Origin: Maribacter sp.
GTDB taxonomy: Bacteria; Bacteroidota; Bacteroidia; Flavobacteriales; Flavobacteriaceae
Direction: 5' to 3'
Assembly (NCBI GenBank): GCA_022865355.1
Contig: JALHST010000070.1
Span: forward strand, 1 to 41,950
DNA: 41,950 nucleotides
Numbering within the stretch: the first letter of the stretch is position 1; each line of letters begins with the position of its first letter. A program made the position numbers and the translations under genes. Below are positions 379 through 29,764 of the stretch, piece after piece. A model generated the notes under the pieces. That model had not been told where the DNA came from and ran no database searches. It saw only the letters and a list, made by a program, of their open reading frames with translations.

Positions 379-825
379 TCACGGGAAACAGGAAGCTTTC
401 GCTTCCTGTTTTTTTTTACTACTCTTTTGAAGACCGGCTTCGAGTTGAACTAAAAAATAGGACCTTGGCCCAGCGGGTGATTGCTGCGACCTAACCAAGA
501 AAGTCCTTGTTAGGTAGTCGGCACGTATACTAAGCAACAGCCTAGCTTCCTTCAACTGTTTTAAATTGATGACCGGCTCACGTTCGGGTATACCCAATCC
601 CCTTAAGATACCATACGGCCCCGAAGAGAGGGTTCCTAAAGCTTTTCCGTCCACATTATGCAGAAATTGGGAAACTAAAAATTCGGCAATGCAGTGCGAC
701 CCGACTTCGAAATTCGCAAAAAATAACATATCAGCTGTGCCCAATAGATCTGTATAATATGTTTTCAATTCTTTTTTTGAGGCACTATTAGTCCTGTTTT
801 GGGTATTGGCCGTTTTCGATTTCAT
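379..825 (-). CDS. Unrecognised 148-residue protein
   Basis: I do not recognise this family. The ORF starts with ATG at 825 and encodes 148 residues with lysine-rich ends and a mixed hydrophobic middle (about residues 25-110). There is no signal peptide, membrane segment or known motif. It is divergent from the ytxH operon, but the regulatory box at 901-912 has no -7 element at the usual distance on this side. Its last twelve or so codons are made of the hairpin of a plus-strand terminator, which is odd for a real C-terminus. It may be a genuine accessory gene, a gene whose 3' end was replaced, or a chance ORF. Confidence 0.4.
   Translation of the reverse strand: MKSKTANTQNRTNSASKKELKTYYTDLLGTADMLFFANFEVGSHCIAEFLVSQFLHNVDGKALGTLSSGPYGILRGLGIPEREPVINLKQLKEARLLLSIRADYLTRTFLVRSQQSPAGPRSYFLVQLEAGLQKSSKKKQEAKASCFP
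386..417 (+). terminator. Strong intrinsic terminator
   Basis: An 11-bp perfect stem (386-396 pairs with 401-411) with a TTTC loop is followed by a run of T to 417. This is a textbook Rho-independent terminator for transcription entering from the left. It lies inside the last codons of the opposite-strand ORF 379-825, which lowers confidence in the end of that ORF. Confidence 0.85.
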
Positions 826-1320: not shown

Positions 1321-1665
1321 ATGGCGTTCGAAGAACTAAAGCGAGACCTCATTGAAGCAGATGCCGACGTGAGGTCTTATCTGGAAAATAGCGAGGAGTA
1401 CTTTCGTTTAAAAGTCTTTAAGGTACTTATGGGGATTATTACCACCGCCTCACAATCGCTCCTGATTGGGGCGTTGGCATTATTAGCCCTGTTTCTGTTA
1501 TCCTTAGCGGCATCCATCGCCTTAAACCTGGTATTTGACAGTCCGTATCTAGGCTATGTCATACTCGGAACGGCGTATGTGCTCTTGGCTATCATTTGCT
1601 ATTTTCTTAAGGATCGGTTCAACGCACCCCTTTTTCGAAAATTCTCCAAACGATATTTTGATTGA
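1321..1665 (+). CDS. Holin-superfamily (phage_holin_3_6-like) membrane protein
   Basis: This 114-residue protein has a charged N-terminal amphipathic stretch (1-40) and two hydrophobic segments (about 42-68 and 75-96) with a short basic tail. Size and layout match the Phage_holin_3_6 / actinobacterial holin-X family. In bacterial chromosomes these are usually paired with YtxH proteins and are not linked to phage. No phage genes are present nearby. It sits 6 bp after ytxH and 3 bp before the next small gene, so all three are probably co-transcribed. Function is unknown; a role in envelope stress or membrane organisation is an inference from context. Confidence 0.8.
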   Translation: MAFEELKRDLIEADADVRSYLENSEEYFRLKVFKVLMGIITTASQSLLIGALALLALFLLSLAASIALNLVFDSPYLGYVILGTAYVLLAIICYFLKDRFNAPLFRKFSKRYFD

Positions 1666-2055: not shown

Positions 2056-3126
2056 CTAAACCGGTTCGGCCACATTTCTTAACTTCTCCCTGTCCAAGAG
2101 AATAATCCTTCGTCCATAATCGGTAGTAATCATCCCCTCGTCCTTAAAATCGGATAAGGTGCGAATGGCAGTTTCGGTCGCCGTACCGATCAGACCGGCC
2201 AAATCCTCACGGGGGATACCGATACCACTATGGGTCTTATCGCCAACGATTCCTTTGGTATATAATTCGAGAAGTGCTTTGGCAGCGCGTTGCCGCACCG
2301 AAGCATAGGCCATATCGACCAAATGTTCCTGTACATCGATTAGATTGCTCGATATCATACCAATAAATTTCTGCGATACAACAGGATTTCCATATAGTAA
2401 TTCGGTAAATTCCTTTTTGGGTATGGCTACGACTTCGGCATCCTCAAGTACGGTAGCAGTTTCGATACAGGTGCCCAAACGGTTCAATATGGAAAGTTGC
2501 CCCATAAAATCTCCTGCGCTATAGATACCGGTGACGAATTCCTTCCCTGATTCGGTACCTTTATGTGTTTTAATGGTCCCGCTTTCAACGAAGTATAGGG
2601 AGTGTGCCCTATCTCCTTCCCAATACATGATTTCGCCTTTGCTTAGTGCCTTTAAATCGTGTTCCTTTGATAGCTGTTCAAAATCCAAATAGTTGGAAGC
2701 TTCGATCAAAAACGAATTTAAACCTTGTACATTCTTGGTTATCTCTTTTTTTAGGAACTCATTTTTTTGAAGACGACTTGAGATGGCATCCAAAAGTTCA
2801 TTTTCCTCAAACGGTTTGGTCAAGTAATCGTCGGCCCCCAAATTCATACCGGCCCGTATTTCAGTCCGCGCGGTCTTGGCTGTCAAAAAAATAAAGGGAA
2901 CACCGGCCGTTTTACTGTTTTTTGACAATGCCTCCAATACTTGGTAACCGTTCATTTCGGGCATCATAATATCGCAAACGACGATATCGGGCTCGAACTG
3001 TTTCGCCTTTTCAACGCCAATTCTACCATTTTCAGCCGTAACCACCTCATAGTTGGCCAATTCGAGAATATCGGCCGTATTCTCGCGCACATCTGTATTA
3101 TCCTCGATAAATAGTATTTTTTTCAT
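2056..3126 (-). CDS. Response regulator: receiver + cNMP-binding + Crp/Fnr HTH
   Basis: This protein (356 residues from the chosen start) joins a receiver domain (1-120) to a Crp/Fnr regulator. The receiver has the acidic pair E8/D9, phospho-acceptor D52 (CDIMMP), the conserved Thr of FLTAK and the Lys of LTKPF. A cyclic-nucleotide-binding-type beta-roll follows (about 150-265) and a C-terminal winged HTH (285-350). The recognition helix has Glu and Arg four apart (TETAIR, about E318 and R322 from this start), aligning with CRP Glu181/Arg185 and FNR Glu209/Arg213, which contact the GA of TGA. There is no FNR-type cysteine cluster. The start at 3126 is favoured over ATG 3132 because the paralogue at 26809 begins identically with MK-ILxIED. 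It overlaps the kinase gene by 29 bp, so the two are translationally coupled. It is the best candidate for binding the TGAY-N4-RTCA boxes. Confidence 0.92.
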   Translation of the reverse strand: MKKILFIEDNTDVRENTADILELANYEVVTAENGRIGVEKAKQFEPDIVVCDIMMPEMNGYQVLEALSKNSKTAGVPFIFLTAKTARTEIRAGMNLGADDYLTKPFEENELLDAISSRLQKNEFLKKEITKNVQGLNSFLIEASNYLDFEQLSKEHDLKALSKGEIMYWEGDRAHSLYFVESGTIKTHKGTESGKEFVTGIYSAGDFMGQLSILNRLGTCIETATVLEDAEVVAIPKKEFTELLYGNPVVSQKFIGMISSNLIDVQEHLVDMAYASVRQRAAKALLELYTKGIVGDKTHSGIGIPREDLAGLIGTATETAIRTLSDFKDEGMITTDYGRRIILLDREKLRNVAEPV

Positions 3127-5872
3127 AATCATATAGATTTAAGGGAAGCCGCACCGTAAACGTACTTCCTTTCCCTAAGCTGCTTTTGAATGTTACGGTG
3201 CCACCCATCAATTCGGTGTATTGCTTTACGATATGAAGCCCCAGTCCCGTACCTTGGATAGTTCCGGCATTTCTTGCCCTAAAAAACCTATCGAATAGGT
3301 TTTTGTGTTCATCACTAGGGATTCCGATGCCTTTATCTGATATTTTAAGAAGTAGTGTATCGCCTTTACGCAGAATTTTTAATAGAATTTCCTGACCTTC
3401 ATGTGAATATTTCAAGGCATTGGAGAGTAAATTGACCAGAATATGGCTCACCAATTTTGGGTCTAAATAAACTGACAAGGTAGTTTCAGTAGCGTTTAAA
3501 ATGATTTGTTGTCCTTCCTTTTTACTCGATTCCATTTCGTCCAACAACGATTTTGATAACTGTATAAGGTCAAAATGCTGCAAATTGGCAACCAACTTTC
3601 CTTCTTCCAACTTACCCAATGAAAGGAAATCATTTAGAATGACCACAAGATTCTTCACATTCGCACGAATGCGCGAAACGTGCTTTGATCGGTAGGTTTC
3701 CTTGCCCGGTTCGTTTTGCTTGTCTATTAAAATGGCCGACGATAAAATGGCACTTAAGGGCGTTCTGAACTCGTGGGAAGCCATTGAAATAAAACGGGAC
3801 TTCAATTCATTCAGTTCTTGTTCGACCTTTAATGCCCGTCCCAACTCTTCGAGTACCTTTTTTTGTTCGGTGATATTGTGATAAACGAACAAGGCCGCAT
3901 CAATTTTGTTGTCTTCGGAGCGCATGGGGGTTGTATTCACCGCATAATAATTCTCCTGATAAATCAACTCAAAGGATAGACTTTGGCCGTCCAATGTTTG
4001 TTGGATATGCTTTTTTACCTCTGCTATCGAGTCAGTCGAAAAAATAGCAATGGCATCGATTGACCTGCCTTCCAAATCTCCATTTTTAAGATGTAACCGC
4101 GAGAGTTCCTCCCCTTCAATGAAGACTAATTCATAGTGCGAATTGTATACCGCGATGATGCCCTTTGGGAAGTTTTGTGCGATGGCGGTCAACTGCATTT
4201 GATTTTGCCGTGCCTTGCTCTCAGCAATTTTGGTCTCTTGTATTTGGTCTTCTAAGCTTTGATTGGTTTCGACCAATTTGTGTACGGCGATATGTAGCTC
4301 GTGGGTGCGCTCATTTGCCTTATTCTCAAGTTGATTGGCATATTCATGCAATTGATTTTTAGTATTTTGAATTTCGGTCACATCGTTTTGAACCCCAATA
4401 AAATGTGTCAATTTTTGATCTTCATCGTATAAAGGGGTTAAGAACAACTCGTTCCAAAAAAGAGTGCCGTCCTTTCGGTAATTCCGAAGCACTACGCGAC
4501 ACGTTTTACCCGTTTGAATGGCCTTGGCCAAAACAGCAATTTGCTCTTGATCGCGGTCATCATTTTGTAAGAATCGACAGTTCTTCCCAAGAACTTCGCT
4601 TTGCTTGTACCCGGTGATATGGGAAAAGGCTTTGTTACAATAAATTATGGGAAGATCGGGATGCTGTGCATCAACAATAATAATCCCGTTCCCTGCAGCC
4701 TCTAATGCCCTGTTTCTGATGTCGAGTCGTTGTTTGGCCAATTTTGTCTCCGTCACATCGATTCCTGAACTGATAACCCCAATGGTTTTGCCTTTATCAT
4801 CCTTAAAGGTGGCATTTCGCCATCGAATGATCCGTTTGACACCATTTTTATTTAGGATCGGATTTTCAAAATAATCGGGCGGAGATGTTCTACCGGAAAT
4901 AACCGAATCAAACAATCCCAACAATTTTTTTCTATCCTTTTCCGGTATGAAGCTATCAAACCAATTTTTTCCGGCGATATCCTTTTGGGGATATCCAAGT
5001 ATCTCGCATCCCTTTTTATTAACCATTTCAATGATATGATCTTTGTTGATCACCAAGAACATAGATGCGGCCGTATCCAAATATTGGTGCAACCGACTTT
5101 TCTCTTTGGTTAGTCTGATCTCGGTTTCCTTTTGTCTGGTTATATCCTCCATAAAGCCTTCCAGTCTATGGATTTTATTTACTTCATCCTGCACCATGGA
5201 ACCTCGCTCCAATATCCACTTTACCTGGTTGTTCGAGGTGATGATCCTATAGCTAAATTGATACTTCTTTTTTTTTGAAACGGCCTGCTTTATTTCCTCC
5301 CGAATTCGATCCCTATCCTCTGGGTGAATGAGGTTGCCCCAGGAAATTTCACTGTCATCGTAAAATTGTTCGGGGGTATACCCGCTAATTTCTCGGCAAG
5401 CTGCACTGATAAATTCCATACTTCTTTGCCTATCAAGTTTACAGCGGTATACAATACCCGATACATTGGCCACCAACCTACGAAACTTCATATCACTTTC
5501 AAAAACGGCAATATCGGCCGGTTTACAATAGACCACCTTGATATTTTGCCCCTTTAATTCGGTCCTTACAATTCGAATGTCCATAGGGAATTCTGTCCCA
5601 TTTTTAACCCGGCCTACAAACTGGATCGGTTTCGCGGTAGCTTTTTCTAAATGGACTCTAAATTCATCCCCATACCCATTGGGAATAACCATCCTCATTG
5701 GTTGATGGGTCAATTCACCTGGTTGATAACCGAACATACGTTCCCCTGCCAGGTTGGCATTGAGGATCATCCCATTTTCATCCAAGACAAAGAAGCCCGC
5801 AATGGATGATGCCGAAATGGCCTGAAAAAGATCGCTATTTTTTAGTACATCGGGCATGACTCGGTATTTCAA
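3098..5872 (-). CDS. Multi-PAS/LOV sensor histidine kinase
   Basis: This 924-residue kinase has no membrane segments and is probably cytoplasmic. Order: PAS1 (about 12-120), PAS2 (125-250), PAS3 (258-378), a LOV domain (about 383-505), coiled coil, PAS5 (560-680), HisKA with His700 (SHEFRTPL), then the ATPase domain with N, G1 and G2 boxes. The LOV domain has GKNCRFLQ with Cys432, and Asn464, Asn474 and Gln495. Spacings from the Cys are 32, 42 and 63, identical to Avena phot1 LOV2 (C450, N482, N492, Q513). A flavin photosensor is therefore strongly predicted. It is co-transcribed with the overlapping response regulator, and its promoter carries the regulon box, implying autoregulation. The mRNA leader would be about 135 nt, much longer than others in the regulon. 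Confidence 0.93.
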   Translation of the reverse strand: MKYRVMPDVLKNSDLFQAISASSIAGFFVLDENGMILNANLAGERMFGYQPGELTHQPMRMVIPNGYGDEFRVHLEKATAKPIQFVGRVKNGTEFPMDIRIVRTELKGQNIKVVYCKPADIAVFESDMKFRRLVANVSGIVYRCKLDRQRSMEFISAACREISGYTPEQFYDDSEISWGNLIHPEDRDRIREEIKQAVSKKKKYQFSYRIITSNNQVKWILERGSMVQDEVNKIHRLEGFMEDITRQKETEIRLTKEKSRLHQYLDTAASMFLVINKDHIIEMVNKKGCEILGYPQKDIAGKNWFDSFIPEKDRKKLLGLFDSVISGRTSPPDYFENPILNKNGVKRIIRWRNATFKDDKGKTIGVISSGIDVTETKLAKQRLDIRNRALEAAGNGIIIVDAQHPDLPIIYCNKAFSHITGYKQSEVLGKNCRFLQNDDRDQEQIAVLAKAIQTGKTCRVVLRNYRKDGTLFWNELFLTPLYDEDQKLTHFIGVQNDVTEIQNTKNQLHEYANQLENKANERTHELHIAVHKLVETNQSLEDQIQETKIAESKARQNQMQLTAIAQNFPKGIIAVYNSHYELVFIEGEELSRLHLKNGDLEGRSIDAIAIFSTDSIAEVKKHIQQTLDGQSLSFELIYQENYYAVNTTPMRSEDNKIDAALFVYHNITEQKKVLEELGRALKVEQELNELKSRFISMASHEFRTPLSAILSSAILIDKQNEPGKETYRSKHVSRIRANVKNLVVILNDFLSLGKLEEGKLVANLQHFDLIQLSKSLLDEMESSKKEGQQIILNATETTLSVYLDPKLVSHILVNLLSNALKYSHEGQEILLKILRKGDTLLLKISDKGIGIPSDEHKNLFDRFFRARNAGTIQGTGLGLHIVKQYTELMGGTVTFKSSLGKGSTFTVRLPLNLYDYEKNTIYRG

Positions 5873-6011: not shown

Positions 6012-6054
6012 TAAATGTAGTACGCAATAGAACATTAGAAAATGATATCTGTCA
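6012..6054 (-). promoter_or_regulatory. FNR-like box and -7 element for LOV kinase operon
   Basis: On the minus strand the box (TGATATCTGTCA on plus, 6043-6054) is followed by TACATTTA (6012-6019), ending exactly 31 bp after the box. Predicted transcription start is near 6007. This suggests the kinase/regulator pair controls its own transcription. Confidence 0.75.
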
Positions 6055-6080
6055 TCAAGTCTCGCCATACCCTTGCCTAC

Positions 6081-6123
6081 TGATAAAGATCATATGGTTG
6101 CTGACGTATATTCAGTATGTTTA
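6081..6123 (+). promoter_or_regulatory. FNR-like box and -7 element for patatin gene
   Basis: The box TGATAAAGATCA (6081-6092) is followed by TATGTTTA (6116-6123), ending exactly 31 bp after it. Predicted start is near 6128, about 19 nt before the ATG at 6147. It is back to back with the kinase promoter; the two box centres are 38 bp apart. Confidence 0.78.
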
Positions 6124-6146
6124 AACCAGTCAAATCACAATAATTG

Positions 6147-6983
6147 ATGAAAACAGGTTTAGTACTTTCCGGCGGTGGTGCCCGTGGCATTGCGCACATA
6201 GGGGTTTTAAAGGCATTGGACGAACAGGGTATCTATCCGACACATATCGCGGGTACAAGTGCCGGGGCCATCGTCGGGGCACTGTATGCATCAGGTTGTG
6301 GTTGGGAAAAAATCTTGGATTTTTTTAAAAACCTCGATATATTTTCCATTAATAACTACGCTAAAAACCAACCTGGGTTTTTGGATTCGACCAAATATTA
6401 TGCCCATTTGAAAAAGTATCTCATAAACGATAGTTTTGAAAAACTCAAAAAACCACTTTATATCACCGCCACAAATTTATTGGACGGAACCTCAAAAGTT
6501 TTTCATCGTGGGGAATTGATCCGGCCCCTTTTGGCCTCCGCGGCCGTACCCGGGATTTTCTCTCCAGTGCAGATCGAAGCCGGATATTATGCCGATGGGG
6601 GCGTACTGAACAATTTTCCGGTAGACCTCATAAAACCCCTATGCGATCAAATTATTGGGGTCTATGTGAATCCCTTCGATAAAGTCAAAATTGGGGATCT
6701 GAAACATTCCTATAGTGTTATGGAAAGAACCTATCATATCATGCTAGACAAAGCATCGTTTGCTAAATTCGCTGATTGCGATCTTATGATACGCCCCAAG
6801 GACATGCAGAATTTCGGCCTATTTTCAATGAGAAATATCGACACGATTTTTCAGTTGGGTTATGAAAGCGCCCTACAGGCCCTGCAATCTAAAAAAAAAA
6901 CGCCAAATTCGGGGAATAACATCAGCCGAATTGGAAGCTATGAATGGTTTTTCACTAGATATTTGGGAAAAGTGATGCTATAG
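6147..6983 (+). CDS. Patatin-like phospholipase
   Basis: This 278-residue patatin-family lipid acyl hydrolase has the oxyanion motif GGGARG near residue 9, the nucleophile elbow GTSAG (about residues 36-40) and the second dyad residue in ADGGV (about 150). The chain is close to a bare bacterial patatin domain with a short basic C-terminal extension and no signal peptide, so it is probably cytoplasmic or membrane-peripheral. I chose ATG 6147 over the TTG just upstream. It is transcribed alone, divergent from the LOV kinase operon, from a promoter with the regulon box. A role in membrane-lipid turnover under stress is inferred from this control. Confidence 0.9.
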   Translation: MKTGLVLSGGGARGIAHIGVLKALDEQGIYPTHIAGTSAGAIVGALYASGCGWEKILDFFKNLDIFSINNYAKNQPGFLDSTKYYAHLKKYLINDSFEKLKKPLYITATNLLDGTSKVFHRGELIRPLLASAAVPGIFSPVQIEAGYYADGGVLNNFPVDLIKPLCDQIIGVYVNPFDKVKIGDLKHSYSVMERTYHIMLDKASFAKFADCDLMIRPKDMQNFGLFSMRNIDTIFQLGYESALQALQSKKKTPNSGNNISRIGSYEWFFTRYLGKVML

Positions 6984-9969: not shown

Positions 9970-10434
9970 CTATGCAATCTGTACTTTTTTAGGAGGCAAT
10001 TTTTTTGCAGTTTCCCTTTTAGCAAGGTCGAAACTCAAGATGCCATCCTTGTAAGATGCCTTGATTGCTTCTTGCTTCACAGTTTCAGGCAGTTGTAGGG
10101 ATCGTTGAAAGCCATTATAGCTAAATTCCCTGCGGGTAAAGTTGTCGTCTTTTTCCTCCTCGGAAGTCGTTTTTTCAGCTGAAATGTTAAGGCAACCGTC
10201 ATCTATGGTAATTTCAAAATCTTTTTTAGCGAATCCTGGCGCAGCCAACTCGATTTTGAATGTATCATCGGTTTCTTTTATATTTAGAGCAGGTTCGGAT
10301 CTTTTGCCATTCCAAAAACGATCTGGCAACATATCCCTGACCCAGGAACGGTTGTCAAAAAAATCATCCATGTCAAAAAAATCCTGTGTCATAAGGTTTC
10401 TAAAAGGTCTTCTTTCAAATTTTACGAGTGACAT
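9970..10434 (-). CDS. Hsp20 / alpha-crystallin small heat-shock protein
   Basis: This 154-residue small heat-shock protein has a variable N-terminal arm (1-45), an alpha-crystallin domain (about 46-140, with APGFAKKDFEI and the closing DGILSFDLAKR motif) and a short basic C-terminal tail ending KKVQIA. It is an ATP-independent holdase that keeps unfolding proteins soluble in the cytoplasm. Its start at 10434 lies 42 nt after the predicted transcription start of the box promoter at 10481-10523. It is the first gene before the P-ATPase on the same strand and is divergent from a second P-ATPase. HspX of M. tuberculosis, a hallmark of dormancy, is in the same family. Confidence 0.93.
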   Translation of the reverse strand: MSLVKFERRPFRNLMTQDFFDMDDFFDNRSWVRDMLPDRFWNGKRSEPALNIKETDDTFKIELAAPGFAKKDFEITIDDGCLNISAEKTTSEEEKDDNFTRREFSYNGFQRSLQLPETVKQEAIKASYKDGILSFDLAKRETAKKLPPKKVQIA

Positions 10435-10480: not shown

Positions 10481-10523
10481 CAAAGGTACAAACGGGTTAA
10501 TGCCCAAAAAATGACTTGGATCA
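10481..10523 (-). promoter_or_regulatory. FNR-like box and -7 element for hsp20
   Basis: On the minus strand the box (TGACTTGGATCA on plus, 10512-10523) precedes TACCTTTG (10481-10488), which ends exactly 31 bp after it. The same box could serve the divergent P-ATPase: on the plus strand TATTTTTA (10545-10552) ends 29 bp after it, two bases short of the common spacing. Confidence 0.8.
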
Positions 10524-13836: not shown

Positions 13837-14925
13837 TTAATTTAAAGATACAGCTTTCAATAAAATGAACTCGCTAATGTTGACCATATCGATCGCCCCG
13901 ATCAGTTTTTCGTTTTCAACGACGGGGAAAAAACTTGCCCTTTCGGTTCCTACCATCTCAAGTACCTTCTGAAGTTCGGTGGAGGCTTCCACGGTCTTGA
14001 AAGAAGTTTGCATTATTTCCTTTACCCTGCGTGCCGGGGTGTTGGCATGTTCAATAATATCCTTATGATTGACAATGCCCAGTATCTTTTCATTTTCTAC
14101 CACCACAAAATCTTTTTCGGTACCTGCCAAGACAATGTTTACGACTTCCCCAACACTGTCGGAGGGACTCAGTAGCGTAATTTTTGTTAAGGTAGCTTCC
14201 TTAACGATATGGCCCTTTAAGATCGAATTTTGTTTTACCATTTGATTTTCGCCATACGCCCCGAAAAAAATAAAGAAGGCGATAAGGATCAAAAACGGAT
14301 TGAACATCAGACCCAGGATAAAAAAGAATACGGCCAGGGCTTGACCGATAATGGAAGCTATTTCAGTGGCCCTTACACGACCTAATTTGAATGATAGCAA
14401 AGCCCTGAGGACGCGACCGCCATCCATCGGAAAGGCTGGGATAAGATTGAAAACGACCAACATGACGTTGGCAATAAAGAGAAAGAATAGAAAATTTTGC
14501 AGTGTTGGTTGGTAAAGCATTTCTTCGGAAACAATCGCATTGAAGTTGAAATAGCTTTTTATAGGGACCACCAGAAAGAGTAAAAGGGCAATGACAATAT
14601 TAACGGCCGGCCCGGCCAAGGCTACCAACAGTTCCTCCCCAGGTTTTTCGGGCAATTTCTCTAAAGAAGCGATGCCACCTATAGGCAACAAGGTAATTTT
14701 TTGAGTATTGATCTTAAATCGCTTTGCCGTAAGGGCATGACCCAATTCATGTAGCACTACACATAGGAACAAAACCAAGATCAGCGCCTCGTTAAGCAAG
14801 ATCCGATCAAGGTTTCCCCCACGCTGCATTTCCAAAAAAGCGACCCAAATCAACAAAAGCGTAAAGGTCCAATGTACTTCAATTTTAACGCCTGAAATAC
14901 TGCCCAGTCTTAAAACACCCTTCAT
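13837..14925 (-). CDS. Site-2 protease (M50) with CBS domain
   Basis: This 362-residue intramembrane metalloprotease has HELGH (His59, Glu60, His63) in a membrane helix and the third zinc ligand in PMDGG (Asp168), with four to six membrane segments in residues 1-225. A CBS pair (about 240-355) follows, which may bind adenine nucleotides and report energy state. The substrate is unknown; family members cleave anti-sigma factors or other membrane proteins. It is the first gene of an operon with upp and is divergent from pfkB, both from a single shared box. Mycobacterial Rv2625c, a DosR-regulon protein, has the same M50-plus-CBS layout. Confidence 0.92.
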   Translation of the reverse strand: MKGVLRLGSISGVKIEVHWTFTLLLIWVAFLEMQRGGNLDRILLNEALILVLFLCVVLHELGHALTAKRFKINTQKITLLPIGGIASLEKLPEKPGEELLVALAGPAVNIVIALLLFLVVPIKSYFNFNAIVSEEMLYQPTLQNFLFFLFIANVMLVVFNLIPAFPMDGGRVLRALLSFKLGRVRATEIASIIGQALAVFFFILGLMFNPFLILIAFFIFFGAYGENQMVKQNSILKGHIVKEATLTKITLLSPSDSVGEVVNIVLAGTEKDFVVVENEKILGIVNHKDIIEHANTPARRVKEIMQTSFKTVEASTELQKVLEMVGTERASFFPVVENEKLIGAIDMVNISEFILLKAVSLN

Positions 14926-14943: not shown

Positions 14944-14986
14944 CGAAGATATTTCCAAAGGCCAATTTGGGCAATGACAATTATCA
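14944..14986 (-). promoter_or_regulatory. FNR-like box and -7 element for site-2 protease operon
   Basis: On the minus strand the box (TGACAATTATCA on plus, 14975-14986) is followed by TATCTTCG (14944-14951), one mismatch from TAnnTTTG, ending exactly 31 bp after the box. Predicted start is near 14939, 14 nt before the ATG. The box is shared with pfkB. Confidence 0.68.
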
Positions 14987-15017
14987 TATCTACACCGATG
15001 GTTACAGTGTATATTTG
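14975..15017 (+). promoter_or_regulatory. FNR-like box and -7 element for pfkB operon
   Basis: The same box (14975-14986) is followed on the plus strand by TATATTTG (15010-15017), also ending exactly 31 bp after it. Predicted start is near 15022, 27 nt before the ATG of pfkB. Confidence 0.8.
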
Positions 15018-15048: not shown

Positions 15049-16041
15049 ATGAATACGATCATTACCCTTACGGTGAATCCGGCCGTCGATAAGAGTACCA
15101 CCGTAGCGGCCATTAAAGCCAATAGCAAATTAAGGTGTAGCGACCCCGTTTTTGAGGCGGGCGGGGGAGGCATCAATGTCTCACGGGTCTTGGCAGAACT
15201 GGGTGGAAAGTCCTTATGCATGTATATGGCCGGTGGCCCTACGGGAAAACATTTAAAAGACCTGATCGACGCACAGCATATTCGCCAAGATATTATTCCC
15301 ATAGAAGGTTGGACCCGTGAAAATTTGGCGGTAACAGATACCTCTGCCCATCAACAATATCGATTTGGGATGCCAGGACCTAAGGTTAACGAACTCGAAT
15401 GGAAAAAAACCTTGGAGCATCTGCACGATACGTTGCAGGAAGGGGATGTCTTGGTGGCCAGTGGAAGTCTATGCCCCGGCATGCCCGTTGACTTCTTTGG
15501 ACAAGTGGCCAAAATAGCCCTGAAAAAAGGGGTGAAATTTATTTTGGACACCTCCGGTGAAGCCCTGCGCGCGGCAGTGAAAGTTGGTGTTTATTTGCTA
15601 AAACCCAACCTAGGCGAACTCAGTAGCCTCTGCGGCGTAACTTCTATTTCCTTTAAGGAATTGGAACGATATGCCAAACAATTTGTAGTGGATAATCCCT
15701 GCGAAGTCATCGTGATTTCCTTAGGGGCGAAAGGAGCCTTGATGGTCACCAAGGACACCCTCGAATATATAGCAGCCCCGATCGTACATCAAAAAAGTAC
15801 TATCGGTGCCGGGGACAGTATGGTGGCCGGCATTGTATATCGCCTGGTCCATGGCAGATCCCTTCTGGAAATGGTACAGTACGGGGTGGCCTGCGGTACG
15901 GCCGCAACCATGACCGAAGGTACCCAACTTTGCAAAAAGAAAGACGTGAATGGTTTGTTCAAATGGATTAGGAAGAACACGGGGGAATCTGAGGGAAAAA
16001 TAATAAACACTAACAGCGATTCTTTTAATACCTCTGAATAA
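15049..16041 (+). CDS. pfkB: 6-phosphofructokinase II (PfkB)
   Basis: This 330-residue PfkB-family sugar kinase closely resembles E. coli PfkB. Shared landmarks are LTVNPAVDKST at the N-terminus, FEAGGGGINVSR, the YRFGMPGP stretch, LDTSGEAL, LKPNLGEL and the anion-hole/catalytic-base motif GAGDS. It should phosphorylate fructose 6-phosphate, or possibly fructose 1-phosphate or tagatose 6-phosphate. The C-terminal 20 residues are an extra polar tail. It heads a probable operon with DUF302 (33-bp gap) and class II ribonucleotide reductase. A PfkB enzyme, Rv2029c, is also part of the mycobacterial DosR regulon. Confidence 0.92.
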   Translation: MNTIITLTVNPAVDKSTTVAAIKANSKLRCSDPVFEAGGGGINVSRVLAELGGKSLCMYMAGGPTGKHLKDLIDAQHIRQDIIPIEGWTRENLAVTDTSAHQQYRFGMPGPKVNELEWKKTLEHLHDTLQEGDVLVASGSLCPGMPVDFFGQVAKIALKKGVKFILDTSGEALRAAVKVGVYLLKPNLGELSSLCGVTSISFKELERYAKQFVVDNPCEVIVISLGAKGALMVTKDTLEYIAAPIVHQKSTIGAGDSMVAGIVYRLVHGRSLLEMVQYGVACGTAATMTEGTQLCKKKDVNGLFKWIRKNTGESEGKIINTNSDSFNTSE

Positions 16042-16600: not shown

Positions 16601-18328
16601 ATGCTATCCCAACTTACGGCAAACGCACTACAAATTCTTGAGGCACGCTACCTCCTGCGAAACTCGAAAGACAGGCTTATTGAAAGCCCGGAACAGCTCC
16701 TTAAAAGGGTGGCCAAGCACGTCGCTAGTACCGAGAATACCGATACGACGCTATGGGAAGAATCATTTTACCAAAGTATGGTCCAACTTGAATTTCTGCC
16801 CAACTCGCCTACCTTGATGAACGCAGGTTTGCCAAAGGGACAGTTGAGCGCCTGTTTTGTGCTCCCCGTAGAAGATAGTCTTGAGGCCATTTTCACTACC
16901 CTGAAAAACGCGGCCATGATACACCAGAGCGGCGGGGGTACAGGTTATAATTTTTCAAGTCTTCGGCCCAAGGGAGACCTAGTGAGTTCAACCGGGGGTA
17001 CTTCTTCGGGACCTATTGCCTTTATGGAGGTGTATGATAGCGCTACCGAACATGTAAAACAGGGGGGAAAGCGACGTGGTGCCAATATGGGCATTTTAAA
17101 TATCGACCATCCCGATATCGAAGAATTCATCGTGTCAAAATCGGAGGGCAAGCGCTTGAAAAATTTCAATATATCGGTCGGGATAACCGATGCTTTTATG
17201 CTAGCGGTCGAAAAAGATGCACAATGGGTCTTACGCAATCCCAGGACCCAAAAAATTGAAAGAACGGTCAGTGCCAAAGCCTTGTGGGATACTATTGTCA
17301 GGGAAGCCTTTGCTACCGGAGATCCCGGTCTGATCTTCCTCGATACCATCAATGGGGAGAATCCATTACCAAAAAAAGGGCGCATACTCGCCACCAATCC
17401 CTGCGGGGAAGTTCCCTTACTAGACTATGAAAGTTGTAATCTGGGATCTATCAACCTAACCAAAATGTTGCAAAATGATGGCAACCATTTTCAGATCGAC
17501 TGGAACAAACTGGATAAAACCATTAAAATTAGCATTCGATTTTTGGACAATGTCATCAGTTGTAACTACTATCTATTGCCCGAAATAAAAGAAAATACCC
17601 AGGCCAACCGAAAAATAGGCTTGGGCATTATGGGCTGGGCAGAACTGTTGATCCTGCTTGATATACCCTATGCCTCCGATAAAGCCGTTGCCCTTGCTGA
17701 AAAACTGATGCAATTTATCCAAGAAAAAAGCTATGCCGCCTCCAGAAGTTTGGCAAAGGAGCGGGGAACATTTCAAGCCTGGGAAGATAGCAACTATGCC
17801 CCTGACCGGCCTATTCGCAATGCTACATGTAATAGCATTGCGCCTACAGGGAGTATTTCGGTTATTGCCAACACCTCCTACTCCATTGAACCATTGTACG
17901 CGCTATCGTATAACCGGGTGGGGATTTTGGACAACAAGACCCAGAACGAAACGAACGGCATTTTTGTAAACAGGATGAAACAGCTCGGACTTTGGACCGA
18001 AGAGGTCAAGGCGGCCGTAACGGCCACAGGGAGTATTCAGCAGTTAAAATACCTTTCTAAGGAGACTAAAAAACTTTTTGAAACGAGTCTTGAGATTCCC
18101 TGGAAATATCATCTCTTACACCAAAAGGCCTTTCAAAAATATACCGACAATGCGGTTTCCAAGACCATCAATCTTTCCGAAACCACTGCTATTAAAGCGG
18201 TATCCGAAATTTATAAAACAGCCTGGGAGTATGGTCTGAAGGGAATAACGATTTATCGGAACGGAAGCAAGGTCGATCAAGTGTTACGCAGTTGTGGTGT
18301 GGATCTCATCGATGCGTGTAGCTTATAA
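16601..18328 (+). CDS. nrdJ: Adenosylcobalamin-dependent (class II) ribonucleotide reductase, short form
   Basis: This 575-residue enzyme makes deoxynucleotides using coenzyme B12 and needs no oxygen. The redox pair is Cys85 (LSACFVLP) and Cys279 (ESCNLGSINL); the thiyl-radical site is NPCGE with Cys268. APTGSIS and the closing GLKGITIYRNGS motif are present. It is shorter than typical NrdJ (about 700 or more residues) and lacks the long C-terminal zinc-binding region. It ends with two cysteines, C565 and C573, which may act as the shuttle pair as in NrdA-type tails. No ATP-cone is apparent. It follows DUF302 by 136 bp with no box of its own. NrdZ, its mycobacterial counterpart, is in the DosR regulon. 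Confidence 0.9.
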   Translation: MLSQLTANALQILEARYLLRNSKDRLIESPEQLLKRVAKHVASTENTDTTLWEESFYQSMVQLEFLPNSPTLMNAGLPKGQLSACFVLPVEDSLEAIFTTLKNAAMIHQSGGGTGYNFSSLRPKGDLVSSTGGTSSGPIAFMEVYDSATEHVKQGGKRRGANMGILNIDHPDIEEFIVSKSEGKRLKNFNISVGITDAFMLAVEKDAQWVLRNPRTQKIERTVSAKALWDTIVREAFATGDPGLIFLDTINGENPLPKKGRILATNPCGEVPLLDYESCNLGSINLTKMLQNDGNHFQIDWNKLDKTIKISIRFLDNVISCNYYLLPEIKENTQANRKIGLGIMGWAELLILLDIPYASDKAVALAEKLMQFIQEKSYAASRSLAKERGTFQAWEDSNYAPDRPIRNATCNSIAPTGSISVIANTSYSIEPLYALSYNRVGILDNKTQNETNGIFVNRMKQLGLWTEEVKAAVTATGSIQQLKYLSKETKKLFETSLEIPWKYHLLHQKAFQKYTDNAVSKTINLSETTAIKAVSEIYKTAWEYGLKGITIYRNGSKVDQVLRSCGVDLIDACSL

Positions 18329-25224: not shown

Positions 25225-25267
25225 CAAAGGTAAATTCAAAATCGTTTTTCGCGTATGACAAATGTCA
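25225..25267 (-). promoter_or_regulatory. FNR-like box and -7 element for deoC-deoD
   Basis: On the minus strand the box (TGACAAATGTCA on plus, 25256-25267) precedes TACCTTTG (25225-25232), ending exactly 31 bp after the box. The predicted start is near 25220. Confidence 0.82.
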
Positions 25268-25286
25268 CAGAGTTATTATACATTTG
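25256..25286 (+). promoter_or_regulatory. Same box close to the second kinase promoter
   Basis: On the plus strand a good -7 element TACATTTG (25279-25286) ends only 19 bp after the box and 4 bp before the kinase ATG at 25291. The box centre would sit near -30, overlapping the core promoter, which points to repression rather than activation. The mRNA would begin at or next to the ATG (leaderless). Confidence 0.55.
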
Positions 25287-25290
25287 AACC

Positions 25291-26805
25291 ATGCACATCT
25301 TCCAAAAAAATAGCAATATTTTTAATTTACTTTCCGAAGGCATTTCCGAAGGAATTATCGTTGTTAATGAAGAACAACAGATCGTCGCAACCAATTCTTC
25401 CGCCAAGGAAATGTTTGGCTATGTTGAGGATGAGTTATTGGGCAAGCCGCTCGATACTCTGATTCCTTCAAAATATCATCATGCCCATAAGCACCATTTT
25501 GAAGACTTTATCAAGAAAAGTGGGAAGCGCCAAATGGGAATGGGTCGGGACCTGTACGGCGTTCGAAAAGGAGGGGAGGAATTTCCGGTAGAAGCCGGTC
25601 TCAATCCCTTCGAGCTTTATGGACATACCTATGTTATGGCATTGGTCATAAATATTACCGAACGAAAAAAGGCCGAGCAAGAACTCATTCATTGGGCAAG
25701 AATATTTGATGAATCCTTAAACGAAATTTACATATTCGATGCCCATTCATTACGGTTTATAGATGTCAATAAGGGGGCAATTGGTAATATGGGGTACACC
25801 CTGGGAGAATTTAGGCAGTTGACCCCGGTAGACATTGAACCCAAATTTGCGGAAGCTAAATTTCGCAAATTGTTGCTTCCTTTATTGGACAGGAAAAAGG
25901 AGAAGCTGGTTTTTGAAACGGTCCATGAACGTAAGGATGGCACGACCTATCCGGTCGAAGTGCACCTTCAATCCTCTAAAATTGGAGAAAGGGACGTGTT
26001 TGTAGCTATGATCGTTGATATTACCGAGCGATTAAATTATACGAACAAACTTGAAAAAACGGTTGAGCAGCGCACCAAGCAATTGACAGAGGCCTTGGAG
26101 AAAGAAAAGGAACTCAACGAATTAAAAACACGGTTCTTGTCTTTGGTATCCCACGAATTCAAGACCCCGCTTAGTGGCATTTTAACCTCGATTACCTTAT
26201 TGGCCAAATATACCGATACCGATCAGCAAGACAAGCGCGACAAACATATCACCACCATTCGAAATAAGGTGCGGTATTTGGACGCAATTCTAAATGACTT
26301 TCTTGGGGTAGAACGCTTGGAATCCGGGAAGATAAGCTACAAATTAGTGCCATTTCCGCTGAGCAAAATCGTCAACGAAGTTATCTATGACGCCAATATG
26401 TTGCTAAAGACCGGTCAGAGAATAAGCTATCCCGAAAATATCGATGGCATAATACTCAAATTTGATGAAAAAATTCTGGAATTGGCCTTATCCAATCTAG
26501 TGAACAATGCCATCAAATATTCGCCTGAAGATTCAATCATTGATATCACAATAGAAAATGACAACGATCATTTGATAGTAAACGTTATTGATAAAGGAGT
26601 AGGTATTCCCGAAGCGGCACAAAAACATATATTTAATCGTTATTTTAGAGCTGAAAATGTCTTGTTGATCCAAGGGACGGGTATAGGTTTAAATATTGCC
26701 AGACAACATCTTGAAAATTTGGGCGCGACCCTTAATTTTAGCAGTGTAGAAAATAAAGGTTCTATCTTTCGTATAAAAATCCCGGTAGCACCTCTAAAAA
26801 GCTAG
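25291..26805 (+). CDS. PAS sensor histidine kinase (second pair)
   Basis: This 504-residue soluble kinase has PAS1 (about 8-125), PAS2 (130-250), HisKA with His288 (SHEFKTPLSG) and an ATPase domain (FKYS-type N box, VIDKGVGIP, GTGIGLN). PAS1 keeps two residues matching the haem pocket of FixL: His66 and, 20 residues on, Arg86 in GMGRD (BjFixL His200 and Arg220). The hydrophobic residue equal to Ile215 is Gln81, so haem binding is uncertain. The kinase core resembles that of the LOV kinase (ELNELK-RF-S, SHEF-TPLS). It is followed 3 bp later by a response regulator. It lacks membrane segments. Confidence 0.92.
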   Translation: MHIFQKNSNIFNLLSEGISEGIIVVNEEQQIVATNSSAKEMFGYVEDELLGKPLDTLIPSKYHHAHKHHFEDFIKKSGKRQMGMGRDLYGVRKGGEEFPVEAGLNPFELYGHTYVMALVINITERKKAEQELIHWARIFDESLNEIYIFDAHSLRFIDVNKGAIGNMGYTLGEFRQLTPVDIEPKFAEAKFRKLLLPLLDRKKEKLVFETVHERKDGTTYPVEVHLQSSKIGERDVFVAMIVDITERLNYTNKLEKTVEQRTKQLTEALEKEKELNELKTRFLSLVSHEFKTPLSGILTSITLLAKYTDTDQQDKRDKHITTIRNKVRYLDAILNDFLGVERLESGKISYKLVPFPLSKIVNEVIYDANMLLKTGQRISYPENIDGIILKFDEKILELALSNLVNNAIKYSPEDSIIDITIENDNDHLIVNVIDKGVGIPEAAQKHIFNRYFRAENVLLIQGTGIGLNIARQHLENLGATLNFSSVENKGSIFRIKIPVAPLKS

Positions 26806-26808
26806 TAA

Positions 26809-27861
26809 ATGAAAACGATACTATTGATTGAGGACGATAAAGTATTACGTGAAAATACCAAAGAACTCCTAGAACTTTCTGACTTTAAGGTTATCGTCGC
26901 ACCGAATGGAAGGGTTGGTATAGAGCTTGCCAAAGAACGTATCCCCGATATTATCGTCTGCGATATAATGATGCCCGTAATCGACGGGTACGGTGTATTG
27001 CGCGAACTTTCTTCAAATGAGGGAACAAATCAAATTCCTTTTATTTTTCTCTCTGCAAAAATCGAACACAAGGAAATTCGAAAAGGAATGGATCTTGGGG
27101 CCGACGATTATCTCACCAAACCTTTTGAAGAAGACGATCTACTCAGTGCTATAGCAAGCCGTTTGGCAAAAACGGAATTACTTGCACGTATGACCTCTGA
27201 AAAATCTTCACCCTTTCCATCGGTTAGTGAAGAAATAAAAACCTTGAACGAGCTAAAGAACTTTTTTGATGATAATGGGCAAATTGAAGCGTATGGGGAA
27301 GGTGAAATGCTCTATCGGGAAGGTGTGCATTCGCATAAAATTTATCTTATTTTAAAAGGTGTTGTAAAGTGTCATACCATTGATGAGGATGGGAAAGAAT
27401 TGATTACCTCCCTACACAGGGCAGATGATTTTTTAGGTCTTACCTCCTTCGTAAATAATAGTCCGTACCCGGAAACTGCAACAGCGATGGAAGCCGTTGA
27501 ATTGGCCGGAATCTCTAAAGAACAACTCAAAAACATACTTTCCCATAACCAATCTATTTCTTTGGAACTAATGGGCCTACTTACCGAGAACCTTACCGAA
27601 ATGAAGAATCAGTTGCTTCAAATGGCGTATAGTTCGGTACGAAGAAAAACAGCACAGACCTTATTGCAATTCGCCGAAATTTTAAACAAAAAAACCGAAG
27701 AGCCCATAAAAATTTCAAGAAACGATTTGGCCAGTGTGGCTGGTATTGCAACAGAGAGTTTAATACGAACCCTATCGGGCTTCAAAAAGGAAGGCCTCAT
27801 AGACATTGAAGGAAGAAACATCAAAATTATGGAATTGAAGGCGCTGCAGCATGTCATTTAG
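26809..27861 (+). CDS. Response regulator: receiver + cNMP-binding + Crp/Fnr HTH (second pair)
   Basis: This 350-residue paralogue of the regulator at 2056-3126 has the same architecture. The receiver (1-120) has E8/D9/D10, phospho-acceptor D52 and the LTKPFE lysine; a cNMP-type beta-roll (about 145-260) and a winged HTH (280-345) follow. The recognition helix TESLIRTLSGFKKEG has Glu316 and Arg320, the Glu-x3-Arg pair that reads TGA in CRP and FNR, so both regulators may bind the same boxes. No Fe-S cysteine cluster is present. It is co-transcribed with the kinase (3-bp gap) and sits 96 bp upstream of the first usp gene. Confidence 0.92.
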   Translation: MKTILLIEDDKVLRENTKELLELSDFKVIVAPNGRVGIELAKERIPDIIVCDIMMPVIDGYGVLRELSSNEGTNQIPFIFLSAKIEHKEIRKGMDLGADDYLTKPFEEDDLLSAIASRLAKTELLARMTSEKSSPFPSVSEEIKTLNELKNFFDDNGQIEAYGEGEMLYREGVHSHKIYLILKGVVKCHTIDEDGKELITSLHRADDFLGLTSFVNNSPYPETATAMEAVELAGISKEQLKNILSHNQSISLELMGLLTENLTEMKNQLLQMAYSSVRRKTAQTLLQFAEILNKKTEEPIKISRNDLASVAGIATESLIRTLSGFKKEGLIDIEGRNIKIMELKALQHVI

Positions 27862-27896: not shown

Positions 27897-27939
27897 TGAT
27901 AAATGTCATATCATAGGGAATACGGGTCAGCTACCTTTA
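27897..27939 (+). promoter_or_regulatory. FNR-like box and -7 element for first usp gene
   Basis: Box TGATAAATGTCA (27897-27908) is followed by TACCTTTA (27932-27939), ending exactly 31 bp after it. Predicted start is near 27944, 14 nt before the ATG at 27958. Confidence 0.8.
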
Positions 27940-27957: not shown

Positions 27958-28806
27958 ATGAAGAACGTATTAATACCGACCGACTTTTCCAATAACTCCA
28001 TAAATGCCTTGAATTATGCCTTGGTATTATTCAAGAAAATTCCCTGTAACTTTTACATCGTTCACGTACTTGATTTTGCCGAAAGGCGGGTAGAAGTTAT
28101 TGCCAATGGTCCTTCATTGTTGGAAGCCTCGCCGCATAAAATGGCTAGTGCAGTAAACGAATTGGACAAAATACTGCAAACGGTTCGGGATACCTCCCAA
28201 TTTAGCGGCCATCGCTTTTTTACCCAATGCTATTATGGATTCTTCGTTGAGGTCATTCGTAAACAGGTCATTGACAAAAAAATAGATCTTATACTACTGG
28301 GAACGAAAGGTGCTTCTGGCCTTAAAAAATTCATTATTGGCAGTAATGCCGGCGATGTAATCACCAAGGTGCGTTGTAATGCCCTAATTATACCAGAAAA
28401 CGCACCTCCTCAAGTCCCTAAAAAAATTGTCTTTCCTTCAGACTTTAATTTCTTCTATACCCATGCCATTTTACAAAATATAACCGAAATAGTGAACCTC
28501 TGTAAGGCTTCGATAAGCATCTTGAACGTCGGTACGATACAACCTCAATTAAGTGCCATGCAGCGGCATAACAAGGCTGAATTACAGGATTATATGGAAG
28601 AGATTTTTCCAAGTTCACACGACTTTCAGCGTTTGAAGGGACCTAAAGTCACCGACACCATTCAAGATTTTGTTTCGAACAAAAATATTGACATGATCCT
28701 TATGGTTGCCAAAAATTTAAATTTTCTGCAACAACTTTTGTTTACTACTACTATTAAGAAAGTCAGTTTTCATACCAAGGTGCCCGTATGGGTCTTACAT
28801 GATTAA
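27958..28806 (+). CDS. Universal stress protein, tandem Usp domains (1 of 3)
   Basis: This 282-residue protein has two Usp domains (about 1-143 and 148-281). The first begins IPTDFSNNS and has the ATP-binding motif G-2x-G-9x-G-S (GTKGASGLKKFIIGSN). The second domain lacks this motif, as is usual in Bacteroidota tandem Usps. Usp proteins bind ATP or AMP and aid survival under starvation, redox and other stress. It is the first of three paralogues in a row, each with its own upstream region. The first two have full regulon boxes. It lies immediately downstream of the second response regulator. Confidence 0.92.
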   Translation: MKNVLIPTDFSNNSINALNYALVLFKKIPCNFYIVHVLDFAERRVEVIANGPSLLEASPHKMASAVNELDKILQTVRDTSQFSGHRFFTQCYYGFFVEVIRKQVIDKKIDLILLGTKGASGLKKFIIGSNAGDVITKVRCNALIIPENAPPQVPKKIVFPSDFNFFYTHAILQNITEIVNLCKASISILNVGTIQPQLSAMQRHNKAELQDYMEEIFPSSHDFQRLKGPKVTDTIQDFVSNKNIDMILMVAKNLNFLQQLLFTTTIKKVSFHTKVPVWVLHD

Positions 28807-28836: not shown

Positions 28837-28879
28837 TGACCAATATCATAGTTTATCATCTACCTTACAGATATTTTTG
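28837..28879 (+). promoter_or_regulatory. FNR-like box and -7 element for second usp gene
   Basis: Box TGACCAATATCA (28837-28848) is followed by TATTTTTG (28872-28879), ending exactly 31 bp after it. Predicted start is near 28884, 20 nt before the ATG. Confidence 0.8.
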
Positions 28880-28903: not shown

Positions 28904-29764
28904 ATGAAAAACATCCTTATACCCACCGATTTTTCGCGAAATGCCTGGAAGGCAATTGCCTATGCCCTACAATTTTTCAAAAATGAAAAATGTACGTTCT
29001 ATATATTGCACACCTATACTCCGATCTTCTATCGCATTGATTACATGATGGGCGGACCTGCCTTCAGCGCTATACCCGATATGGGGGTAGATATTGCGCA
29101 AGCGGGTTTGGATAAAACATATTTAGATATAAAATTGAAATATCCAAATGAAAGGCATTCGTTCAAGTTGCTTAGCTCCTTTAACACCCTAACCGAAGAA
29201 ATTCAGGAGGTTGTTCAGAGGGAAAAAATCGACCTTATTGTCATGGGTACCCAAGGAGCTACCGGGGCCAAGGAAATTTTTCTGGGCACACATACCGTCA
29301 ATGTTATTAGAAAATCTAAAGTTCCCGTGATCGCCGTACCTCTGGGGTATCGATTTAAAGCCATTAAGTCGATTGTATTTCCGACAGATTACCTGTCATT
29401 ATATATAAAAAAGGATCTACAATGCCTTATCGATACCGCAAAAATGTTTCAGGCCGAATTAAAAATCGTACATGTAATAGAGGACACGAAACTAACGGAC
29501 GAACAAAAAGCCCATAAGACGGCCTTGGAGAAATACTTCAATTCCTTGGATTGCTCGTTTGAGGAAGTTAAAGGAGCATATATGCCGAATGCCGTTTACG
29601 AATACATCGATAAACATCATTGTGGACTATTGGCCATGATGAATCGCGACCATTCCTTTCTAGAGCGATTGTTTATAAAACAGAACATAGATGCCATAGG
29701 GTTTCATTCAAAGATCCCCTTTTTGGTGATGCGTGATTCGGCCAAGATCAATCAAAAGAACTAA
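28904..29764 (+). CDS. Universal stress protein, tandem Usp domains (2 of 3)
   Basis: This 286-residue protein has two Usp domains. The first starts IPTDFSRNA and has the ATP motif GTQGATGAKEIFLGTH (about 124-139). The second (150-280) is degenerate at this motif. It closely resembles the third copy (shared GTQGATGAKEIF-G) and is less like the first, so copies 2 and 3 are the more recent duplicates. A near-ideal Shine-Dalgarno-like GGGAGG lies just upstream of the ATG, unusual for this phylum. It is driven by its own box promoter. Confidence 0.92.
   Translation: MKNILIPTDFSRNAWKAIAYALQFFKNEKCTFYILHTYTPIFYRIDYMMGGPAFSAIPDMGVDIAQAGLDKTYLDIKLKYPNERHSFKLLSSFNTLTEEIQEVVQREKIDLIVMGTQGATGAKEIFLGTHTVNVIRKSKVPVIAVPLGYRFKAIKSIVFPTDYLSLYIKKDLQCLIDTAKMFQAELKIVHVIEDTKLTDEQKAHKTALEKYFNSLDCSFEEVKGAYMPNAVYEYIDKHHCGLLAMMNRDHSFLERLFIKQNIDAIGFHSKIPFLVMRDSAKINQKN

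Follow-up and report, generated by a model that had tools for sequence, protein, structure and literature searches.

A LOV histidine kinase paired with a CRP-type response regulator in Maribacter, with a predicted link to a low-oxygen regulon

A 41,950 bp stretch of a Maribacter sp. genome (Flavobacteriaceae; contig JALHST010000070.1 of assembly GCA_022865355.1, positions 1 to 41,950; referred to as the window) encodes a histidine kinase with a blue-light LOV domain (3098–5872, minus strand). Its gene adjoins that of a response regulator with a CRP-type DNA-binding domain. We consider it likely that the two form a blue-light two-component system feeding a low-oxygen, energy-saving regulon (from LOV kinase to REC-CRP regulator to FNR-type regulon), in parallel with an oxygen-sensing twin encoded in the same window. 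The initial annotation of this DNA had proposed a light input to a dormancy-type regulon. An apparently complete LOV domain in the kinase of a REC-CRP system, neighbouring genes that resemble the DosR regulon and linkage through a shared operator lend this partial support, and the tie to day/night or depth that it also suggested is conjecture. Beyond the earlier proposal, the linkage recurs in the family, and the window holds a sister kinase with a heme-type PAS domain.

The LOV kinase has 924 residues from a TTG start (an ATG at codon 6 is an alternative, and residue numbers would then be 5 lower) and is organized as PAS1-PAS2-PAS3-LOV-PAS5-HisKA-HATPase. All five PAS regions, of which LOV is the fourth, score above a Pfam PAS cut-off, PAS5 weakly so (25.9 versus 23.1 bits). 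HisKA was detected at residues 691–758 (45.0 versus 26.9 bits) and HATPase_c at residues 804–912 (101.3 versus 26.4 bits). One chain combines LOV, HisKA with its phospho-acceptor histidine and HATPase_c, as in HisKA-type LOV histidine kinases. The phospho-acceptor His700 (codon 3773–3775, minus strand, in HEFRTPL) lies 203 residues C-terminal of the LOV DxT motif. The LOV core, approximately residues 386–504, occupies 4361–4717 (minus strand), within the interval of 4360–4730 assigned initially. Translation reproduced exactly the residues and spacing that had been noted there. The photoactive Cys432 (4577–4579) lies in GKNCRFLQ, with NCRFLQ starting at residue 431. It is followed at +32, +42 and +63 by Asn464 (4481–4483), Asn474 (4451–4453) and Gln495 (4388–4390; all minus strand). 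By analogy, the two asparagines would contact the flavin ring and the glutamine would be the signalling residue. This is the residue pattern of LOV domains.

The best PDB sequence matches to the kinase span residues 389–516 and are LOV proteins or LOV-kinase chimeras (8a3u, 8a7f, 4gcz, 7r5n and 9vf7; E = 5.6e-34 for 8a3u). Structure prediction on an alignment of 24 LOV domains gave a model (mean pLDDT 83.4, pTM 0.70) that retrieved LOV structures in all matches listed (50 of 519 with E <= 0.001; best E = 2.0e-13), and the modelled fold is nearer to LOV than to other PAS structures. Counting from the cysteine, the pocket positions that we take to be Thr418, Asn425 and Arg467 in Avena LOV2 numbering are occupied by Val, Leu and Ala. 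In the PDB alignment, Thr and Asn are likewise missing from the first two of these positions in the SB2F1 LOV domain (8a3u). Two NCBIfam models matched below their cut-offs, NF052306 for blue-light-activated histidine kinases (127.8 versus 450 bits, residues 382–538) and NF052652 for the YtvA family (155.5 versus 250 bits, residues 387–517). The domain was the single LOV match in its genome in a protein search. Judged by its residues, it appears to be a complete LOV domain, separable from ordinary PAS domains, because the cysteine is missing in all 27 of the weaker LOV-like matches that we found in the family.

The partner regulator, RECCRP1 (2056–3132, minus strand), has a REC-cNMP_binding-HTH_Crp architecture, and the start of its gene overlaps the end of the kinase gene by 35 bp. 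Response_reg, cNMP_binding and HTH_Crp_2 are above the curated Pfam cut-offs both in RECCRP1 and in a second such protein, RECCRP2 (26809–27861, plus strand), as in REC-CRP regulators. To see how widely the arrangement occurs, we searched 397 sampled genomes of the family for the LOV domain at the protein level. We took matches of at least 110 bits as strong; the next match down scored 78 bits. There were 58 strong matches in 55 genomes, all of which were located in fetched loci. In 57 of the 58 the kinase gene is no more than 400 bp from a REC-CRP gene, of the RECCRP1 type in 21 cases and of the RECCRP2 type in 36. The sole exception (L106) has its LOV among P-ATPase, Hsp20 and USP genes. The photoactive cysteine is kept in 56 of the 58 domains and the full Cys-Asn-Asn-Gln set in 46. 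An adjoining REC-CRP gene and the cysteine were both present in five out of five relatives from the genus (Maribacter halichondriae, M. orientalis, M. arcticus, M. polysaccharolyticus and an uncultured Maribacter). This conserved gene order strongly supports the predicted pairing of the LOV kinase with its adjoining REC-CRP protein. A strict DNA pattern for GxNCRFLQ, which matched 19 of the 397 genomes, was replaced by the protein search because it overlooked those LOV domains in which the leading Gly is absent and produced two chance matches that were out of frame (L018, and L023 in a 14-residue frame).

Outside the family, none of 20 fetched loci with some of the strongest LOV matches (L140–L159) has a full REC-CRP gene beside the LOV gene, and nine adjoin a receiver-only protein (L140–L143, L145–L147, L149 and L150). 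The kinases paired with receiver-only proteins there are about 500–530 residues long. Loci L145 and L150 have a stand-alone CRP-type gene about 1.5 kb away.

The regulator was connected to candidate targets through a palindrome, ATGAC-N4-GTCAT, found in the upstream regions of the loci, both those with and those without LOV. Of 393 upstream regions, 103 contain it with at most one mismatch, versus 2.05 expected from dinucleotide shuffles, a comparison in which the motif itself was derived from an overlapping set of loci. Its position is steady, from -78 to -85 for Hsp20 and from -61 to -72 in 16 of 21 sites for USP1. With up to one mismatch allowed, 84 of 118 sites have the element TANNTTTG, which we take to be the Bacteroidetes -7 element, starting at a distance of exactly 29.5 bp from the centre of the operator (33 of them without a mismatch), and the next commonest spacing accounts for four of the 118. 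The operator therefore lies near -41.5, the position of class-II CRP/FNR activators, and the predicted promoters have class-II CRP/FNR-type geometry. The recognition helices of the two REC-CRP proteins in the window read TETAIR and TESLIR, whose Glu and Arg are presumably the residues that contact such sites in CRP/FNR.

The composite motif (operator plus -7 element) occurs 55 times in the genome, versus five times for a reversed control, and nine of the 55 sites lie inside the window, which makes up 1% of the genome. An operator with one mismatch (6042–6055) is located between the LOV kinase gene and a divergent gene for a patatin-like phospholipase (6144–6983, plus strand). Together with a -7 element at 29.5 bp (TACATTTA, one mismatch) it makes a composite site facing the LOV kinase operon (6012–6054, minus strand), which is predicted to be a class-II, autoregulated promoter of that operon. 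A second site (6081–6123, plus strand, one mismatch) faces the patatin gene. The remaining sites on the plus strand precede a YtxH-like gene (site 901–943, with its operator at 900–913; gene 985–1314), PfkB (14975–15017; 15049–16041), which is followed by DUF302 and a class II ribonucleotide reductase (16601–18328), USP1 (27897–27939, one mismatch; 27958–28806) and USP2 (28837–28879; 28904–29764). On the minus strand they precede Hsp20 (10481–10523; 9970–10434), an M50 protease-CBS protein (14944–14986, one mismatch; 13837–14925) and DeoC (25225–25267), the operator of the last (25255–25268) lying between DeoC and the sister kinase.

Near the LOV kinase is a set of genes like those of the DosR regulon, comprising three USPs, Hsp20, the class II ribonucleotide reductase (TIGR02504 above its cut-off), PfkB and two P-type ATPases, for which calcium-pump models score best, yet below their cut-offs. 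Across the genome, we checked 30 of the 55 composite sites for downstream open reading frames, and 26 gave one, some apparently by chance. Among their products are USPs, Hsp20, PfkB, DeoC, DnaJ, a CBS protein, HemN, PFOR, pyruvate-phosphate dikinase and cytochrome c. HemN is above its family cut-off, PFOR and pyruvate-phosphate dikinase are frames cut by the locus, and thioredoxin-reductase-like and glycogen-synthase-like targets fall below the cut-offs. The target set is that of a predicted low-oxygen, energy-saving regulon, and the operator evidence supports a tie between the kinase, the regulator, many of the DosR-like neighbours and one putative regulon of this type.

The second kinase/REC-CRP pair of the window (25291–27861, plus strand) is paralogous to the first. 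Its kinase, HK2 (25291–26805), consists of a heme-type PAS (H66, M84, R86), a second PAS, HisKA and HATPase, and has no LOV. For PAS1 (residues 11–125; 25321–25665, plus strand), 13 of 16 PDB matches are the heme-PAS sensors DosP, FixL or YddU (best E = 3.8e-14); of the other three, one is another multi-sensor kinase and two are not of the heme-PAS type. In the alignment with DosP, H66 and M84/R86 fall on its His and Met-x-Arg, so that HK2 has the proximal His and distal Arg of FixL/DosP, assuming that the residue roles known from those proteins (proximal His, distal Met/Arg) apply here. PAS1 of HK2 is thus a putative heme PAS of the oxygen-sensor type. The LOV kinase was rejected as a heme sensor in its own right, as its PAS1 has Phe where the proximal His of heme-PAS domains aligns.

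In the family, RECCRP2-type kinases without LOV have the heme His in 19 of 19 readable cases and the distal Arg in 19 of 20. In those with LOV the readable counts are 31 of 35 and 11 of 35. This pattern suggests that LOV may have taken over from oxygen sensing in RECCRP2-type kinases. We set the loss of the Arg aside as support for such a takeover, as a sign test on only four independent pairs was not significant. RECCRP1-type kinases without LOV lack the heme Arg too (0 of 4 readable). Two kinases (L075 and L110) have an intact heme-type PAS, with His and Arg, plus LOV in one chain and are candidate light-plus-oxygen sensors.

REC-CRP relatives (E of 1e-60 or better) were found in 186 of the 397 family genomes. 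Among the 27 genomes with a regulator of the RECCRP1 type (at least 360 bits versus RECCRP1), the system has a LOV kinase in 21. On a tree of 90 regulators, built by a quick method, the LOV state changed at least nine times, seven of the changes being forced by starred branches. Given these changes and the six RECCRP1-type systems without LOV, LOV appears to behave as a module, coming and going while the regulator stays stable. The distance from the last DxT motif to the phospho-acceptor His of HK2-type kinases is 167 residues in 31 of 33 readable sequences with LOV (36 in all) and in six of seven readable sequences without LOV (20 in all). The 20 LOV-less loci were chosen because the family search listed no LOV there, so the absence of LOV in 20 of 20 is by selection. 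The 13 that were not readable by the DxT rule mostly have one PAS fewer, judged by their length of about 410 residues. Because the 167 residues are the same with and without LOV, a LOV-plus-linker unit seems to sit in the chain of HK2-type kinases with the output register unshifted.

We propose that blue light would form a Cys432-flavin adduct in LOV, and that the resulting change would pass through the C-terminal helix of LOV and PAS5 to HisKA and alter the net phosphorylation of RECCRP1. The regulator would then bind ATGAC-N4-GTCAT near -41.5, where the computed geometry is that of a class-II activator, and would activate its own operon, USPs, Hsp20, PfkB with the class II ribonucleotide reductase, HemN and PFOR. 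The HK2/RECCRP2 pair would act alike with an oxygen-type heme PAS as its input, making light and oxygen parallel, interchangeable inputs to one regulon. Two parallel inputs to one activator network is the simplest model because the regulators partnered with the LOV and heme-PAS kinases are paralogous and have similar recognition helices. We considered reading the sign of the light response from the register of the linker and make no claim on it, because PAS5 intervenes between LOV and HisKA. In YF1, according to extracts of PMC6798134, this register sets the sign and one added residue reverses it.

Several findings weigh against the proposed light-controlled system. On the sensing side, four further PAS domains accompany LOV in the same kinase, six of the 27 RECCRP1-type systems do without it, and the LOV-to-His distance varies in RECCRP1-type kinases, being 376 residues in 15 and 203 in five (25 readable of 26), the latter also the distance in the window's own kinase. 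The neighbour counts have common ancestry behind them and show conserved linkage, not independent events. The cysteine is absent in two of the 58 LOV domains, replaced by Phe (L137) and Ile (L139), and the glutamine in 10, so light sensing appears to be under no absolute constraint. These otherwise intact systems and the additional PAS domains would suit a LOV whose main retained role is flavin redox or structural, in a kinase that answers chiefly to its other PAS domains, with light mattering little. The light-independent role of Caulobacter LovK in general stress control (extracts of PMC4844311) would be a precedent. We nevertheless regard this explanation as quite improbable, given the near-universal retention of the cysteine, the complete residue set in 46 of the 58 and the repeated gain and loss of LOV on the regulator family; an adduct-forming cysteine would be needless for structure alone.

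The two genomes that encode L137 and L139 are related. Their LOV domains, without the cysteine, would be naturally blind, and the kinase and its REC-CRP/USP neighbours are still there. Ten loci (L062, L066, L070, L093, L112, L117, L122, L128, L134 and L138) encode LOV domains that have the cysteine and carry Leu, His or Ser in place of the glutamine. Such variants offer a natural way to probe what Gln does in LOV signalling.

On the regulon side, the operator at one mismatch is scarce or absent upstream of several gene types (PATPase1, 0 of 15; WG, 0 of 11; DUF302, 0 of 8) and rare upstream of HK2-type kinases (5 of 57) and USP3 (1 of 20), and outside the window it precedes none of four DeoC genes. 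In addition, a stand-alone gene of the Crp family, whose product starts with a CxxC N-terminus (L219:1546-2256, plus strand), has a composite promoter of its own. It is probably an FNR-like member of the same network and could own part of the regulon. We therefore weighed whether a conventional FNR-like regulator of this type owns the operator and the regulon, leaving the LOV kinase and its REC-CRP partner a small local subset or something else. The operator spacing resembles what we take to be that of FNR sites, and HemN and PFOR are presumably typical FNR-type targets. Such ownership seems unlikely to us, as in many species the sites are found right at the REC-CRP loci, the LOV kinase operon's promoter among them, and are crowded within the window as described, and the TETAIR and TESLIR helices keep the Glu and Arg with the contact role given above. 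Overlapping regulons would also be compatible with control by the LOV kinase and RECCRP1.

A photo-oxidative or general stress response, in which light warns of damage, would account for Hsp20, DnaJ and the USPs among the targets, and LOV-to-general-stress links are known for YtvA/SigB and Lmo0799 (extracts of PMC4844311). We think it doubtful that the regulon is of this kind rather than a low-oxygen one. It includes oxygen-independent enzymes (HemN, the class II ribonucleotide reductase above its cut-off and a partial PFOR), and the sister kinase HK2 has a PAS of the oxygen-sensor type. No catalase or photolyase was found among 10 target open reading frames scanned with Pfam, the other sites being unclassified.

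LOV kinases paired with REC-CRP regulators are found in related bacteria too, a pattern suggesting that light can supplement or replace an oxygen signal. A broader possibility, to which we give even weight for and against, is that this family uses blue light as an inbuilt substitute signal for oxygen. LOV would have entered, or taken the place of, the heme-oxygen PAS of the regulon kinase several times, at an unchanged distance to the His in HK2-type kinases, with L075 and L110 combining light and oxygen and with no need for photosynthesis or rhodopsin. The genome has no rhodopsin match in a search that was positive in 10 of 60 genomes (photoreceptors beyond LOV and rhodopsin were not searched), which agrees with the description of the host as non-phototrophic; the marine habitat given with it is presumed from Maribacter relatives. 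If the proposal is true, heterotrophic flavobacteria set a low-oxygen, energy-saving programme partly by light, which would be sensible in places where the activity of photosynthetic neighbours makes oxygen rise by day and fall at night. To our knowledge, LOV kinases are common, but their target genes are mostly not known. Here the sensor, regulator, operator and target list are all readable from the sequence. Naturally occurring kinases with LOV, without LOV, without the Cys or without the Gln, all of identical spacing, also form a variant set for studying how PAS cassettes fit into a kinase.

The mycobacterial DosR dormancy regulon is one of the nearest known systems. DosR itself is a NarL/LuxR-type regulator served by GAF-heme sensors, and we presume that class II ribonucleotide reductase, PfkB and a P-ATPase are further genes common to its regulon. 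The USPs and heat shock proteins shared with the DosS/DosT-DosR system (extracts of PMC10034137) make the "dormancy-type" description a fitting one. The likeness is in gene content only, as the window has REC-CRP regulators and no GAF model was listed by Pfam for either kinase. The PpSB-LOV, YF1 and SB2F1 LOV proteins and kinases (8a3u, 4gcz, 3sw1) share the fold, the photoactive residues and a helical linker to a HisKA-type kinase; they are short or engineered, whereas the window kinase has LOV as the fourth of five PAS domains and a PAS between LOV and HisKA. Caulobacter LovK-LovR and Brucella-type LOV histidine kinases are likewise two-component systems, and LovK is tied to stress control (PMC4844311, in extract). 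LovK-LovR acts in a sigma-factor stress pathway, whereas the partner here is a DNA-binding REC-CRP protein with a predicted class-II operator.

HK2 shares with FixL/DosP the PAS type and the proximal His and distal Met/Arg at aligned places, and its output is a CRP/FNR-type protein; the heme His is missing from the LOV kinase. In FixLJ the CRP-type regulator FixK2 is separate and downstream (PMC9104804, as far as extracts show), whereas here receiver and CRP are in one protein. Rhodobacter AppA (BLUF plus heme SCHIC) also joins blue light with oxygen/redox (extracts of PMC4844311), but it is a BLUF antirepressor of photosynthesis genes in a phototroph, whereas the window encodes a LOV kinase in a host without a rhodopsin match. 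The same extracts establish as already known LOV kinases, LOV control of stress responses (YtvA, LovK, Lmo0799) and the integration of light and oxygen by AppA. Within open-access PubMed Central, with subscription papers outside this scope, no title or abstract opening described, for Bacteroidota, a LOV kinase that drives a REC-CRP regulator or a low-oxygen regulon. A CRP/FNR paper that includes Flavobacteriales genomes predicted carbon-sensing MalR-like regulators, and its examined portion does not give the ATGAC-N4-GTCAT site (PMC8510549).

The GC content of the window (0.42) is within the range of other stretches of the assembly (0.36–0.46), and thus the window does not look foreign. A third REC-CRP of the genome (L180:7856-8902, minus strand, contig C283) is accompanied by five USP genes, with no adjoining kinase in the stretch read, and may be driven by one of the two kinases of the window. 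The window also encodes a stand-alone 132-residue PAS protein (36058–36456, minus strand), whose PAS scores are close to the cut-offs; the protein next to it (35228–36061, minus strand) resembles a metallo-beta-lactamase by eye. Two small proteins without a Pfam match (379–825, minus strand, and 1321–1665, plus strand) accompany the LOV kinase/REC-CRP pair in many genomes, and an operator (900–913) is located upstream of the gene for the first.

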